In this document: piece by piece, positions 57,839-64,000 of the stretch | Layout: every line of letters starts with the position of its first letter | How positions within the stretch are numbered: the first letter of the stretch is position 1 | Assembly (NCBI GenBank): GCA_023129715.1 | Contig: JAGMBO010000082.1 | Location: 1-64,000 of the forward strand | Reading direction: 5' to 3' | Length of the DNA stretch: 64,000 nucleotides | From: Candidatus Eiseniibacteriota bacterium | GTDB taxonomy: Bacteria; Eisenbacteria; RBG-16-71-46; CAIMUX01; WJJG01 | The notes under the pieces: model-generated | What the model was told of the DNA's origin: nothing | Databases searched by the model: none | Seen by the model: the letters and a program-made list of their open reading frames with translations, nothing else | Program-made: the position numbers and the translations under genes

Positions 57839-58212
57839 CGTCTCCTCCTTCCCCTCCCCTCGCGGCGCCGACGGCGCGGTGAGGGAACGAAATCGTCACG
57901 CGCTGTTCTCACTCGCCCCCCCATACAGATCGCGTGCCAGCCGGCCCCGGACCCCGCAATACGCTTCCTATCAGTCTATTGCGTCGATTGAGCATGCTGG
58001 GGCGACGCCCGCTCCGACTGTGGCGTTTCCTCGCAGGTGTGGTCTCGATTCACGGAATCGGCACCCTCAGACCGGACCGCGCGGTTCACATACCCCCCGG
58101 CGCATACGTTCCGTCGCGGCCGTTGTCGCCGCGGCGCCGCGGGTGCTAGGCTTCGAGGTTGCCCGATTCTCGTTTAAAAACGGCACGCCTCAGGTGCCCG
58201 GCAAGGTGGTTC
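57839..58212. other. Divergent intergenic region before uvrA
   Basis: About 370 bases without a gene between the divergent lipoprotein and uvrA genes. It should carry both promoters; tcgtttaaaaacg at 58169 is the only strongly A/T block. No clear LexA-type palindrome is seen. Confidence 0.45.
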
Positions 58213-61200
58213 ATGGCAGGTGGCGGCAAGAAAAGCTCCTCGCGTAGGCGCTCCGCGGAGGCCGACCAGGCGCCCCGCCGTCCGGCGGCGACCGTGATCC
58301 GCGGGGCGCGGATGCATAACCTGCAGGGCATCGACTGCTCGATTCCGCTCGGGAAGATCACTGCGATCACGGGTGTCTCGGGGTCAGGCAAGTCGACCCT
58401 CGCCTTCGACATCCTCTATGCGGAAGGCCAGCGCCGCTTCGTCGAGTGCCTTAGCGCCTACGCGCGGCAGTTCCTCGAACGGCTCGAGCGCCCGAATGTC
58501 GACCAGATCGGATTCATCCAGCCCCCGATCGCACTGAAGCAACGAGTCAGCATTAAGAACGCCCGCTCGACGGTGGGTAGCGTCACCGAACTGAGCGACT
58601 ACCTGCGCCTGCTGCTCGCCCACGCTGGATGCCTCCACTGCCTGGAGTGCGGGGGTGAGGTCGTGCGCACCGGGATCGATGACGCCGTCGCGGCCGTTCG
58701 CGCATGGGAACGGGGCACTCGGCTGGCAATCGTCGCCCCGCTGACCCCACGTCCCGATCGCGCCGGGATCGAGCGCCTGCGCGCCCAGGGCTACACGCGC
58801 CTGCTTGCCGGCGACCGCGTGGTCGAGATCGACGACTGGCTGGCGGGACCGTCGGCCCGGCGTGCAGGCCGACGGCCGCTCGGCCTGGTGATCGACCGTA
58901 TCATCGTCGGCCAGGCCCGCCGCGGACGCATCGCCGAGGCGTTCGAGACGGCCTGGCACCAGGGCCAGCGTAGCTGCCGTCTGCAGCCGCTGGAGGGCGG
59001 AGCGGGAAAAGTCCTGCGGGGCGGGCTTGCCTGTACGCAATGCGGCGCGCCGGCGCAGGAACCCACGCCCGCGCTTTTCTCCTCGAACAGCCCCCTCGGT
59101 GCCTGTCCAACCTGCCAGGGATTCGGGCGGATCATCACGGTCGATCGGGACAAGGTCGTCCCCGATCCACGCAAGAACTTGCGCAATCATGCCGTCGTGC
59201 CCTTTGGCGTACCCTCCGCCCGCGGCTGGTACCGCCGCCTACTACGCGCGGCGCGCGCGCTGGAGATCCCCACCGACCTCCCCTTCGAAAGGCTCTCCCC
59301 GGAGCAGCGGGACTGGATCTTCCGCGGCGACGAGGACTTCCCCGGAGTGGAAGGCTTCTTCGAAGCACTCGAGCGCAAGCGCTACAAGATGCATGTGCGC
59401 ATCTTTATTGCTCGCTTCCGCGGCTACGCCCCCTGCCCGACCTGCCGGGGTTCGCGCCTGAAGCCGGCCGCCTTGGCGGCGACCTTGGGGGAAAAGAACA
59501 TCCATGAGTTGCACGAGCTCACGATCGAGGCGCTGCGCGGTTTCCTGGACGAACTGAAGCTGACCCCCCAGGAGCACCGCAAGGTGCGTGCGGTGCTCGA
59601 GAGCATTCGCGCCCGGCTCGTCTGTCTCGAGGAAGTCGGGGTCGGCTACCTGACGCTGGGCCGCACCGGGAGAACACTGAGTGGCGGCGAGACCCAGCGC
59701 ATTCGCATTGCCGCCGCGCAGGGCAACACGCTGACCGAAACGCTCTTCATCCTCGACGAACCGACCGTCGGACTGCACGCCACCGACACCGAGCGCATGC
59801 TCGGCGTGCTGCGCCGCATGGCGGCGATGGGCAACACGGTGGTCGTCGTCGAGCATGATCCGGAGATCATCGCCGGTGCGGATCACCTGATCGTTCTCGG
59901 CCCCGGGGGAGGGCGCAACGGGGGACACCTGGTCTACGAAGGTGATGTCGCCAGCTTCCTGCAGAAGGAACCCGACTACTTCCGTGCCGTCCCACCCGGA
60001 GCCGCACCGCCGCTCGACTACCGCCGCCGTGGGAAGCAGGGGCGCGCCCGCCGCCAGCGCGAACCGCGGCTGAGCAGTCCCTGGAGCGCCGAGGCCGTCC
60101 GAGCCTGGCTGGCTCAGCGCCAAGGGCGCGGCGGGGGCACGGCAGGGGATGATGCGCGTTCCGCGGCGCGGAGTAAATCCTCCGCCGCGGCGGGCACCGG
60201 CCGCGCACTTGTGGCCGAGGGTGGCCGCGCCGCCCCGGGCCCACGGCTCGAGATCCGCGACGCACGCGAGCACAACCTGAAGATTGCGAGGCTCTCGGTT
60301 CCCCTCGGGGGTCTCGTCGTGATCACCGGCGTCTCGGGCTCGGGCAAGTCGACACTCCTCGACGAGATCCTCTACCGCAACTGGCTGCGACGCCAGGGAC
60401 GGACGGTGGAGGGCGTCGGAGAGGTCGGCGAGATCTCAGGCCTGCAGCGGATCACCGAAGCCCACCTGGTCGGTCAGGATCTCCTCGGCCGCTCCAGCCG
60501 ATCGAACCCGATCTCGTTCGTCAAGGCCTACGGCGAGATACGCAAGGCGCTCGCGGGCACCCTGCTCGCCCGGCAGCGATCGCTGGATGCGGGTGCCTTC
60601 TCGTTCAATACCCCCGGCGGGCGGTGCGAGGCCTGTCGCGGCATGGGACTACAAACCCTCGAGATGTTCTTCCTGCCAGATGTCGAGGTCGTTTGTGAGA
60701 CTTGCGGGGGCCAGCGCTTCCGCCCCGAGGTGCTCGCGGTCACCTGGCGTGGCAAGAACATCGATGAGATCCTGAAACTGACCGTCGATGAGGCCACTGA
60801 GTTCTTCGCCCCGGAGCCCCGGGTGGTCGAGCGGCTCGCCCCGCTGCGCAATGTCGGCCTCGGCTACATCACTCTCGGACAGAGCACGAACACACTGAGC
60901 GGCGGGGAGGCGCAGCGGCTGAAGATCGCCGCCTTTCTCGCCAACGGCGCCCGCGACGAGCGTCATCTGTTTCTCTTCGACGAACCGACCACCGGACTGC
61001 ATGGCCGAGACGTGAGCCGCCTGCTCGGCGCGCTGCGGGCCCTGCTGGGCCGCGGTCACGCGGTCATCGCCGTCGAGCACCATCTCGACTTCATCGCCGC
61101 CGCCGACTGGGTCATCGACCTCGGCCCCGGGCCCGGGAAGGCCGGCGGGCGCCTGGTCTATGCCGGCCCGGTCGCCGGCCTGCTGCAGCAGTCCGAGAGC

Positions 61201-61263
61201 CCGACCGGCCGCGCGCTACGGATCCGACTGCATGTGAAGGGATCGGGGAAAGCCGAGCGATAG
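58213..61263 (+). CDS. uvrA: Excinuclease ABC subunit A
   Basis: ATG 58213 has AAGGTGG upstream. The 1016-residue ATPase has two ABC modules: Walker A GVSGSGKSTLAFD / signature LSGGETQRI / Walker B ILDEPTVGLH, and GVSGSGKSTLLDE / LSGGEAQRLK / FDEPTTGLH. Zinc modules are CLHCLECGG, CTQCG..CPTCQGFG, CPTCRGSRLKP and CEACRGMG..CETCGGQRF. It recognises bulky DNA lesions with UvrB. The first zinc motif is abbreviated, and an Arg/Gly/Ala linker of about 90 residues joins the ABC halves, suggesting a non-class-I UvrA. Confidence 0.92.
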   Translation: MAGGGKKSSSRRRSAEADQAPRRPAATVIRGARMHNLQGIDCSIPLGKITAITGVSGSGKSTLAFDILYAEGQRRFVECLSAYARQFLERLERPNVDQIGFIQPPIALKQRVSIKNARSTVGSVTELSDYLRLLLAHAGCLHCLECGGEVVRTGIDDAVAAVRAWERGTRLAIVAPLTPRPDRAGIERLRAQGYTRLLAGDRVVEIDDWLAGPSARRAGRRPLGLVIDRIIVGQARRGRIAEAFETAWHQGQRSCRLQPLEGGAGKVLRGGLACTQCGAPAQEPTPALFSSNSPLGACPTCQGFGRIITVDRDKVVPDPRKNLRNHAVVPFGVPSARGWYRRLLRAARALEIPTDLPFERLSPEQRDWIFRGDEDFPGVEGFFEALERKRYKMHVRIFIARFRGYAPCPTCRGSRLKPAALAATLGEKNIHELHELTIEALRGFLDELKLTPQEHRKVRAVLESIRARLVCLEEVGVGYLTLGRTGRTLSGGETQRIRIAAAQGNTLTETLFILDEPTVGLHATDTERMLGVLRRMAAMGNTVVVVEHDPEIIAGADHLIVLGPGGGRNGGHLVYEGDVASFLQKEPDYFRAVPPGAAPPLDYRRRGKQGRARRQREPRLSSPWSAEAVRAWLAQRQGRGGGTAGDDARSAARSKSSAAAGTGRALVAEGGRAAPGPRLEIRDAREHNLKIARLSVPLGGLVVITGVSGSGKSTLLDEILYRNWLRRQGRTVEGVGEVGEISGLQRITEAHLVGQDLLGRSSRSNPISFVKAYGEIRKALAGTLLARQRSLDAGAFSFNTPGGRCEACRGMGLQTLEMFFLPDVEVVCETCGGQRFRPEVLAVTWRGKNIDEILKLTVDEATEFFAPEPRVVERLAPLRNVGLGYITLGQSTNTLSGGEAQRLKIAAFLANGARDERHLFLFDEPTTGLHGRDVSRLLGALRALLGRGHAVIAVEHHLDFIAAADWVIDLGPGPGKAGGRLVYAGPVAGLLQQSESPTGRALRIRLHVKGSGKAER

Positions 61264-61855: not shown

Positions 61856-61969
61856 GATCCGTCTTCTCCCCTGCGCACGCCAGTATAGCACAGCAAAACC
61901 CCAGGAAAGGCGGAAGTCGCGGTAGCGGCGACGGCGGGTGATCGATCCGCGTTCACACCGCCCCACCTC

Positions 61970-62145
61970 GCACCCTCGCGCCCTCGCCCCATGTCGCGCC
62001 CTCGCACCCTCGCACCCTCGCGCCCTCGCGCCCTCGCCCCATGTCGCGCCCTCGCACCCTCGCGCCCTTGCGCCCTCGCCCCACGTCGCGCCCTCGCACC
62101 CTCGCGCCCTTGCGCCCTCGCCCCACGTCGCGCCCTCGCGCCGCA
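61970..62145. repeat. GC-rich minisatellite, 42-bp higher-order unit
   Basis: Blocks of gccctcgcaccctcgcgccc with a marker ccccaygtcgcg recur four times; internal 8-9-bp subrepeats give a 42-bp higher-order period. It is between divergent HNH and permease genes, in DNA with no recognised gene. Confidence 0.85.
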
Positions 62146-62331: not shown

Positions 62332-62462
62332 TGGGCCGGAGCACGGGACCGAGGGTGGAGCAAGGAGCCGAGGCCGGAGCACGGAACCGAGGCCGGAGCA
62401 CGGAGCCCGGGCCAGAACCGAAGCCAGAGCGCGGAACCCAGGCTGGAGCAAGGAGCCCGAGC
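62332..62462. repeat. 19-bp minisatellite ending in a Shine-Dalgarno
   Basis: Units like gccggagcacggaaccgag repeat about six to seven times with drift. The last units read ggctggagcaaggagcc, whose AAGGAG is the ribosome-binding site of the permease GTG at 62464. Confidence 0.85.
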
Positions 62463-62463
62463 G

Positions 62464-64000
62464 GTGTACTTCCTCGTCGACTTCGTGCGCGAGACGATCG
62501 CCTTCTACATCCGCATCGCTCCCTATCTCCTGATGGGCTTCTTCCTGGCCGGGGCACTACGAATCCTCGTGCCGGCGCGCTGGCTCGCGGCGACCTTCGG
62601 CAAGGCCAACCTGCGTTCCGTGGTGCTCGCCTCGCTGGCGGGCGTGCCGCTGCCACTCTGCTCCTGCTCGGTCCTGCCGACCGCGGTCGCCCTGCGCCGC
62701 AGCGGAGCGAGTAAGGGGGCGACCGTCTCCTTCCTGATCTCAACGCCCGAGACCGGCGTCGACTCGATCAGCATTACCTACGCGCTTCTCGATCCGCTGA
62801 TGACCGTTGTGCGGCCGATCGCCGCCTTCGTCACCGCCGTCGTCGCCGGCGTGGCCGTCAACCACACCGAATCGCGCCGGCCATCCGAGTCCGCCGAGCC
62901 CGCGGGTCCAAGGCCCCCCGAGGTTGCCGCTTTCCCCCCCTCCCCCTGGCGCCGGCCGGGGCGGATGCTGCGCGAGATCATCGATGTCGCCTACGTCGAC
63001 CTGCTCGACGACATCAGTCCCTACCTGTTCATTGGGATGATCCTCACCGGATTGATTGCGGCGGTGGTCCCCGTCGGCGCCCTGGACACGCCGCTGCTGA
63101 GTGGACTGCCCTCGATGCTGCTCATGCTGGTGATCGGGATCCCGCTGTACGTCTGCGCCACCGGTTCGACGCCGATCGTCGCCGCCCTGATCATGAAGGG
63201 CCTCAATCCGGGCGCCGCGCTCGTCTTTCTGCTCGCCGGGCCGGCGACGAATGCCGCCGGGGTAGCCGTGCTGCAGAAGGTGCTCGGCCGGCGGGCGGTG
63301 GTGACCTACTTGCTGGCGATCGCCCTGGTCAGTCTCCTGGCCGGTCTGCTGATCAACAGCATCTACGCTTCGAGCGGCATCGACGCGGCGGCCGTCGTGG
63401 GAAGCAGTGCCGAGATCGTCCCCGCCTGGATCCAGATCCTCGCCGGCCTGGTTCTACTGGCGCTCCTCTGGCGCAGTTTCATCCGGATCGGCTTGCTAGG
63501 AACCTGGCGCGAGCGCCTGCGCAAGCTCGGCCGACCCCTGCGGATCGATCTCACCGGGCGCGCCGCCCGCGCGATCGTCACGCTCGGGATTCTGCTGCTC
63601 TACCTGCTGACCGGTTGCGCGGTCGTCAATCCGGGCGAGGTCGGCTGGGTGCTCAGCTTCGGCCGGGTCACGCGCACGGTCACCGAAGCGGGCCTCGTAT
63701 TCCACTGGCCCTACCCCTTCGCCACCTTCACCAAGGAACAGCCGCTGCGCATCCGCTCGATCGATCGCGGCTTCCGTCCCGGCGAGACCGCCTCGACGAC
63801 CTTCAGTGCCTACCGCGGCGGCCCGACCGCGCGAACCCTGGCCAAGGAAGCCGAGGTGGCGACGGGAGAGGAGACGCTGCTGTCGATCCGCTACAGCATC
63901 CAATACCGCATCGCGGATCCCTACATCGTTCGCTTTGGGATCGACGACGCCGACCAACTGGTAACCGCCTTCAGTGAGTTCGCCCTGCGCCGGGTGATGA
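62464..64000 (+). CDS. SO_0444-type permease fused to SPFH (HflK-like) domain, partial
   Basis: GTG 62464 follows AAGGAG with eight bases spacing; the frame is open to the right edge (512 codons visible). Residues 1-365 are a DUF318/UPF0718 permease of eight to ten helices with VPLPLCSCSVLPTAVALRRSGASKGA (conserved CxC), LIGIPLYVCATGSTPIVAALIMKGLNPG and LLAGPATNAAG, the family proposed to export Cu/Zn or arsenicals. After another helix (LGILLLYLLTGCAVV), an SPFH domain begins: NPGEVGWVLSFGRV, GLVFHWPYPF, SIRYSIQYRIADP. It continues beyond the window. Similar HflK-like proteins are usually separate genes. Confidence 0.85.
   Translation, partial: MYFLVDFVRETIAFYIRIAPYLLMGFFLAGALRILVPARWLAATFGKANLRSVVLASLAGVPLPLCSCSVLPTAVALRRSGASKGATVSFLISTPETGVDSISITYALLDPLMTVVRPIAAFVTAVVAGVAVNHTESRRPSESAEPAGPRPPEVAAFPPSPWRRPGRMLREIIDVAYVDLLDDISPYLFIGMILTGLIAAVVPVGALDTPLLSGLPSMLLMLVIGIPLYVCATGSTPIVAALIMKGLNPGAALVFLLAGPATNAAGVAVLQKVLGRRAVVTYLLAIALVSLLAGLLINSIYASSGIDAAAVVGSSAEIVPAWIQILAGLVLLALLWRSFIRIGLLGTWRERLRKLGRPLRIDLTGRAARAIVTLGILLLYLLTGCAVVNPGEVGWVLSFGRVTRTVTEAGLVFHWPYPFATFTKEQPLRIRSIDRGFRPGETASTTFSAYRGGPTARTLAKEAEVATGEETLLSIRYSIQYRIADPYIVRFGIDDADQLVTAFSEFALRRVM

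Follow-up and report, generated by a model that had tools for sequence, protein, structure and literature searches.

A metal-exporter permease fused to an HflK-like SPFH domain in Candidatus Eiseniibacteriota: a candidate SPFH dome subunit that carries its own transporter

One open reading frame of a draft genome of Candidatus Eiseniibacteriota (186 contigs) joins a metal permease to the beginning of an SPFH domain. This raises the question of whether such a gene is real and, if so, what a transporter would do as part of a subunit of the kind that builds membrane cages. The window that we analysed, i.e. the whole stretch of 64,000 nucleotides, ends within this gene, and the remainder was read on contig C168 (77,356 bases). 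There the fusion protein comprises 723 residues from a GTG at 62464, with its stop codon at 64633-64635. The features of the gene and of its downstream neighbours are as follows:

62450..62455, plus strand: AAGGAG, a Shine-Dalgarno-like sequence 8 bases before the GTG; homologues share the same first residue
62464..64000, continuing to contig position 64635, plus strand: transporter-SPFH fusion gene, a single frame that is the same in relatives
62503..63474, plus strand: SO_0444-type Cu/Zn efflux permease (ArsP_1) half (NF033936, 357-361 bits, cut-off 300; PF03773)
62659..62667, plus strand: Cys-Ser-Cys of the CSCS motif (C66, C68), found in all fusions with a complete N-terminus
63154..63156, plus strand: C231 of the second-half motif PLYVC..STP, invariant across the fusion alignment
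63472..63543, plus strand: basic linker with 8 Arg/Lys against 1 Asp/Glu, predicted to be cytoplasmic (hydropathy)
63544..63618, plus strand: HflK-type membrane anchor, predicted to lead to the periplasm (hydropathy; equivalent helix in the model of a related fusion, see below)
63622..64000, plus strand: SPFH/Band_7 domain (PF01145; E. coli HflK alignment), with Band_7 reaching contig position 64182 and the coiled coil about 64440
64632-65525 of contig C168, same strand as the fusion: HflC-like gene (TIGR01932, 191 bits, cut-off 134)
65515-66567 of contig C168, same strand as the fusion: HflK-like gene (TIGR01933, 217 bits, cut-off 159)
66592-67944 of contig C168, after the HflK-like gene: NCS2-type permease gene

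The preliminary description, made from the window alone, had proposed that one frame joins the permease to the SPFH domain, and we found this frame to be intact over all 723 residues and to carry both domains. The part beyond the window, which ends at 64635, completes an HflK-like SPFH and coiled-coil region. The further claim that neither a start nor a stop lies between the halves held only for the stop: no stop codon separates them, but an in-frame TTG (63493) and an in-frame GTG (63649) are present, and a ribosome that sets out from 62464 reads through both. A stop and new start near 63590 was also sought in relatives and was absent. Four genomes of the same family (56-60% identity, three of them 57-60% along the full protein and the fourth copy being cut at a contig end) and three genomes of the same order but of two other families (one frame of 785-826 codons, 31-36% identity) all keep a single frame. 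Because the same fusion is present in seven relatives and in at least three other phyla at 25-40% identity, it is not an assembly error; these results confirm that the fusion is real and conserved.

Within the phylum, the fusion was found in 8 of the 47 sampled genomes (the window's own included), all belonging to one order. Fusions of the same ArsP_1 type also occur in Latescibacterota (on the complete chromosome CP070631.1), in Phycisphaerae (Planctomycetota) and in candidate division LCP-89. A genome-wide scan with the SPFH half, from which 80 loci were fetched, revealed a transporter-SPFH fusion in 56 of them, eight with ArsP_1 and 48 with another transporter described below. The remaining 24 comprised 21 plain hflK-hflC pairs and three loci (L062, L102 and L110) that resemble the three-gene arrangement cut by contig ends. 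When the permease family was searched instead in 290 genomes, 51 matches passed the cut-off and most of them stand alone; five further loci from other families that were fetched are SPFH fusions, and four of these five have an adjacent hflC-like frame. No viral relative of the fusion was found, and the plasmids searched yielded one three-gene locus, on a conjugative Aquibium plasmid, and no ArsP_1 fusion.

The permease had been read as a CSCS-type metal permease, and profile searches bore this out. Pfam detected ArsP_1 (E 1.4e-45) and Band_7 (E 3.7e-15) on the fusion and no other domain, and the NCBIfam model CuZnOut_SO0444 (NF033936) scored 361 bits against a cut-off of 300, covering profile positions 4-349 of 351. 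The three cysteines of the CSC and C...STP motifs (C66, C68 and C231) are kept in the window protein and its relatives. The fusion thus resembles the SO_0444 family in passing its cut-off and in keeping both the CSCS motif and the second-half cysteine; it differs from the sampled members, which are mostly stand-alone, by about 350 additional C-terminal residues with the SPFH domain. It has been previously reported that SO_0444 of Shewanella oneidensis is required under Zn or Cu stress, for which complementation evidence is listed (PMC3219624), and that a homologue in Nitratiruptor is induced by Cd and Cu (PMC10092412). For an ArsP_1 fusion, AlphaFold gave a poor and unreliable model (pLDDT 57, from an alignment of 9 rows).

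The identification of the second half as HflK-like was likewise upheld. Band_7 (PF01145) scored 56.9 bits (cut-off 23.6), and residues 455-658, which span SPFH2 and the coiled coil, align without a gap to residues 139-342 of E. coli HflK, a run of 204 residues that makes up the ring-forming part. The HflK model TIGR01933 gave 138.4 bits on the SPFH half of the window protein, which lies under the equivalog cut-off of 159.4; other fusions scored from 116 to 244 bits. With HflK/HflC of E. coli (PDB 7vhp, 7wi3, 9cz1/9cz2) the fusion shares the SPFH fold, a single anchor before it, the length of the coiled coil and an hflC partner in the operon. In contrast to the short N-terminus and one anchor expected of HflK, a complete metal exporter precedes the anchor. 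Because a basic linker lies between the last helix of the permease and the anchor, we infer by the positive-inside rule that the SPFH part sits in the periplasm, as it does in HflK.

The HflC-like gene sought beside the fusion was present, and it and the HflK-like gene lie directly downstream of the fusion and partly overlap. The same order, fusion-hflC-hflK on one strand, was seen in 53 of 53 three-gene loci, the median gaps being 16 and 1 bases. The operon therefore differs from that of E. coli in having three rather than two SPFH genes and in their order (fusion-C-K against K-C). It also lacks an adjacent ftsH: the ftsH of the source genome lies away from the trio on contig C110, and none was found beside the trio in the fetched loci that were examined. 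On contig C122, separate from the fusion operon, the source genome has another hflK-hflC pair of the ordinary kind, and it contains nine Band_7 matches in all; a further HflK-like match besides the trio was found in six of six additional genomes searched through their loci.

The preliminary description covered only the ArsP_1 version in the window; the commoner form of the fusion carries a different transporter. This transporter, seen in 48 of the 80 loci, is a cation diffusion facilitator (CDF) with no relationship to ArsP_1, an assignment confirmed by Pfam Cation_efflux on seven and made for the others with a profile built from those seven. The hosts include Chloroflexota, Hyphomicrobiales, Rhodobacterales, Methylomirabilota, Rokuibacteriota, Desulfobacterales, Zixiibacteriota and Eisenbacteria. 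The AlphaFold prediction for a CDF fusion (25 rows; mean pLDDT 78.8) places a weak linker between six helices and a seventh helix, which is followed by the SPFH fold and a long coiled coil. Among PDB structures the model matched HflK best (E 2e-18), and its N-terminal half matched the zinc exporter YiiP best (E 3e-6). The pTM of 0.43 is low, and the relative placing of the two halves is not fixed by the model. Compared with the CDF zinc exporters YiiP/FieF, these fusions keep the six CDF helices and, in most cases, the His/Asp site motifs of helices 2 and 5, whereas the cytoplasmic dimerisation domain is replaced by the anchor and the SPFH domain. The CDF form looks rare in Pseudomonadota, because among 398 genomes searched (E 1e-100, three candidates per genome) only the starting genome had a match covering both halves. 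On the conjugative plasmid of Aquibium oceanicum (L128, NZ_CP018172.1 16552-20197) a CDF-SPFH trio is annotated only as HflK, HflC and HflK, which shows how databases can label such a protein simply 'HflK' and hide the transporter.

Trees were built from 131 SPFH domains (large tree) and from 68 (more careful tree). The SPFH domains of the fusions fell on one side of a branch beside unfused HflK (support 83 in the large tree and 91/81 in the careful one), and the ArsP_1 fusions formed one group (98 and 82/86, respectively) inside the CDF fusions. The alternative in which CDF fusions make up a clade of their own was rejected (AU p 0.028, which can be taken strictly only if the group was defined before the tree was seen), and in the permease tree a single recruitment of ArsP_1 was not rejected (AU p 0.43). 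Taken together, these trees suggest, with moderate support, one origin of a transporter-bearing HflK copy in which ArsP_1 later took the place of CDF. The operon also seems to travel as a unit: in the large tree the alphaproteobacterial trios (L082, L085, L113 and L122) nest among Chloroflexota for all three genes, which suggests that the operon has passed between phyla as a whole, and one trio is carried by a conjugative plasmid.

We found no metal gene adjacent to the window's own trio. The three genomes of the same order (L040, L041 and L042) encode an ABC importer of the zinc/manganese type upstream of their ArsP_1 trio, consisting of a ZnuA-type binding protein, an ATPase and an ABC-3 permease. 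Among the fetched loci, a large SurA/PrsA-like peptidyl-prolyl isomerase accompanied 24 of 56 fusion loci and none of 22 non-fusion two-gene loci, OmpR-type regulators 17 fusion loci against 2 of the 22, and P-type ATPases (7) and Nramp transporters (5) were further neighbours of fusion trios; these figures are counts rather than independent events, as flank length varies and many loci are related. The CDF trios with the isomerase belong to the Chloroflexota/Proteobacteria/NC10 branch, and the isomerase gene lies downstream of hflK in L108, L113, L122, L085, L087, L128 and others, and sometimes upstream. The Aquibium plasmid trio is set amid copper chaperones, SCO, a heavy-metal ATPase, Nramp, DsbB and a two-component system.

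The explanation that we favour, and consider somewhat better than even, is that the gene encodes a metal exporter that doubles as a subunit of an HflK/C-like SPFH dome, built together with its two operon partners. The earlier suggestion that a subunit of an SPFH cage carries a transporter is well supported by the HflK alignment, by the adjacent hflC and second hflK, and by 56 loci from several phyla. The N-terminal permease would move a Cu/Zn-type metal out of the cytoplasm, and the C-terminal half would cross the membrane once more and replace an HflK subunit in a periplasmic ring whose other members would be encoded by the HflC-like and HflK-like genes of the operon. This would fix the exporter at the base of the dome or around it, and exported metal would emerge within a confined periplasmic space or close to it. 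A CDF exporter would do the same job in the more common form, its dimerising cytoplasmic domain being replaced by the SPFH part. The sequences establish the fusion and its conservation, the operon of three genes, the use of two exchangeable metal-exporter families, the HflK-like ring-forming region and the metal-related neighbours in relatives, whereas assembly into a cage, mixing of the three kinds of subunit, the direction and identity of the metal and any channelling are predictions of the model. A bulky permease at each HflK position might prevent the ring from fitting; the second, unfused hflK may relieve this crowding, which is a guess.

Two systems offer comparisons. Stomatin domes in red cells enclose two transporters, aquaporin-1 and urea transporter B (PMC12407830). 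The likeness is an SPFH dome with a membrane transporter, but there the transporter is separate cargo, whereas in the fusion it is part of the subunit. The Pseudomonas aeruginosa operon PA2439-PA2434 (PaFlo5-7, HmtA) combines three SPFH genes with the gene of a P-type metal ATPase; Zur binds its promoter, and zinc depletion induces it (PMC4542158, PMC8531726). A recent survey treats PaFlo5-7 as three SPFH proteins of one operon and mentions no transporter there (PMC13086221). We take PaFlo5-7 to be the SPFH proteins of PA2439-PA2434, and this operon may be a relative of the trio, its gene order and ATPase neighbour being alike.

The SPFH half might instead act as a scaffold only, oligomerising the transporter or positioning it in a membrane microdomain, with neither a closed dome nor channelling of metal. 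The CDF fusions, which lack their usual cytoplasmic domain and have the SPFH part after the sixth helix via a short linker, would agree with this, and the adjacent unfused HflK and HflC could form a dome by themselves. We nevertheless consider it rather unlikely, because plain oligomerisation needs neither a ring-forming region of exactly HflK length nor HflC and HflK partners, and these partners are co-inherited with the fusion (three-gene order in 53 of 56 fusion loci). More speculative, and improbable as it stands, is an extension of the dome reading in which the trio would be a periplasmic metal-loading chamber: metal would be released directly into the space below a closed SPFH dome, and envelope proteins would be folded and metallated there, shielded from the open periplasm, with the SurA/PrsA-like isomerase, where present, assisting folding under the dome. 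If this were true, swapping the exporter family would retune the chamber's metal.

Still more doubtful is the coupling to FtsH quality control that the preliminary description had raised. In this reading the SPFH half would bring the transporter to FtsH, and proteolysis would control how much transporter is present, or how the membrane is repaired, under metal stress. HflK/C are established partners of FtsH in E. coli and build dome- or nautilus-shaped assemblies around it (PMC12048511), and the bias in the occurrence of the folding enzyme (24/56 trios against 0/22) could be read in the same direction. However, this enzyme indicates the periplasm, not proteolysis; ftsH is missing beside the trio, where it had been sought, and the checked genomes keep a separate HflK-like gene, so that the coupling found no support. 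Lastly, an assembly or frameshift artefact that merged two adjacent genes, as a draft genome and the many stand-alone ArsP_1 proteins might suggest, has a negligible probability and is ruled out by recurrence of the same join in independent assemblies, down to 25-36% identity and including the complete chromosome of Latescibacterota.

SPFH domes can now be seen by cryo-EM in many organisms, and to our knowledge the contents of most of them are unknown. If a dome does form, evolution has covalently attached its client: the exporter is part of the subunit, and two unrelated exporter families filled one slot. The fusion thus provides an example, fixed in the genome and open to testing, of a transporter that forms part of an SPFH cage. 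It also suggests a metal-handling role of HflK/C-type complexes apart from FtsH. The architecture is apparently undescribed: we found no account of a CDF or permease fused to HflK/SPFH, and no experiment on a fused protein, in the open-access literature (subscription journals lay outside the scope), and a 2009 survey of prokaryotic SPFH proteins mentions no transporter or permease.

Several other features of the region were observed. In the window genome, as in three of the four same-family genomes, the gene immediately after the trio encodes an NCS2-type permease. Two tandem-repeat arrays (61966-62142 and 62334-62443) lie upstream of the fusion start, with 8/42-base units of the CCTCGCGC type and 19-base units, and fill much of the stretch. 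Further upstream in the window, at 58159-61263, a long open reading frame with two ABC ATPase halves resembles a UvrA paralogue.
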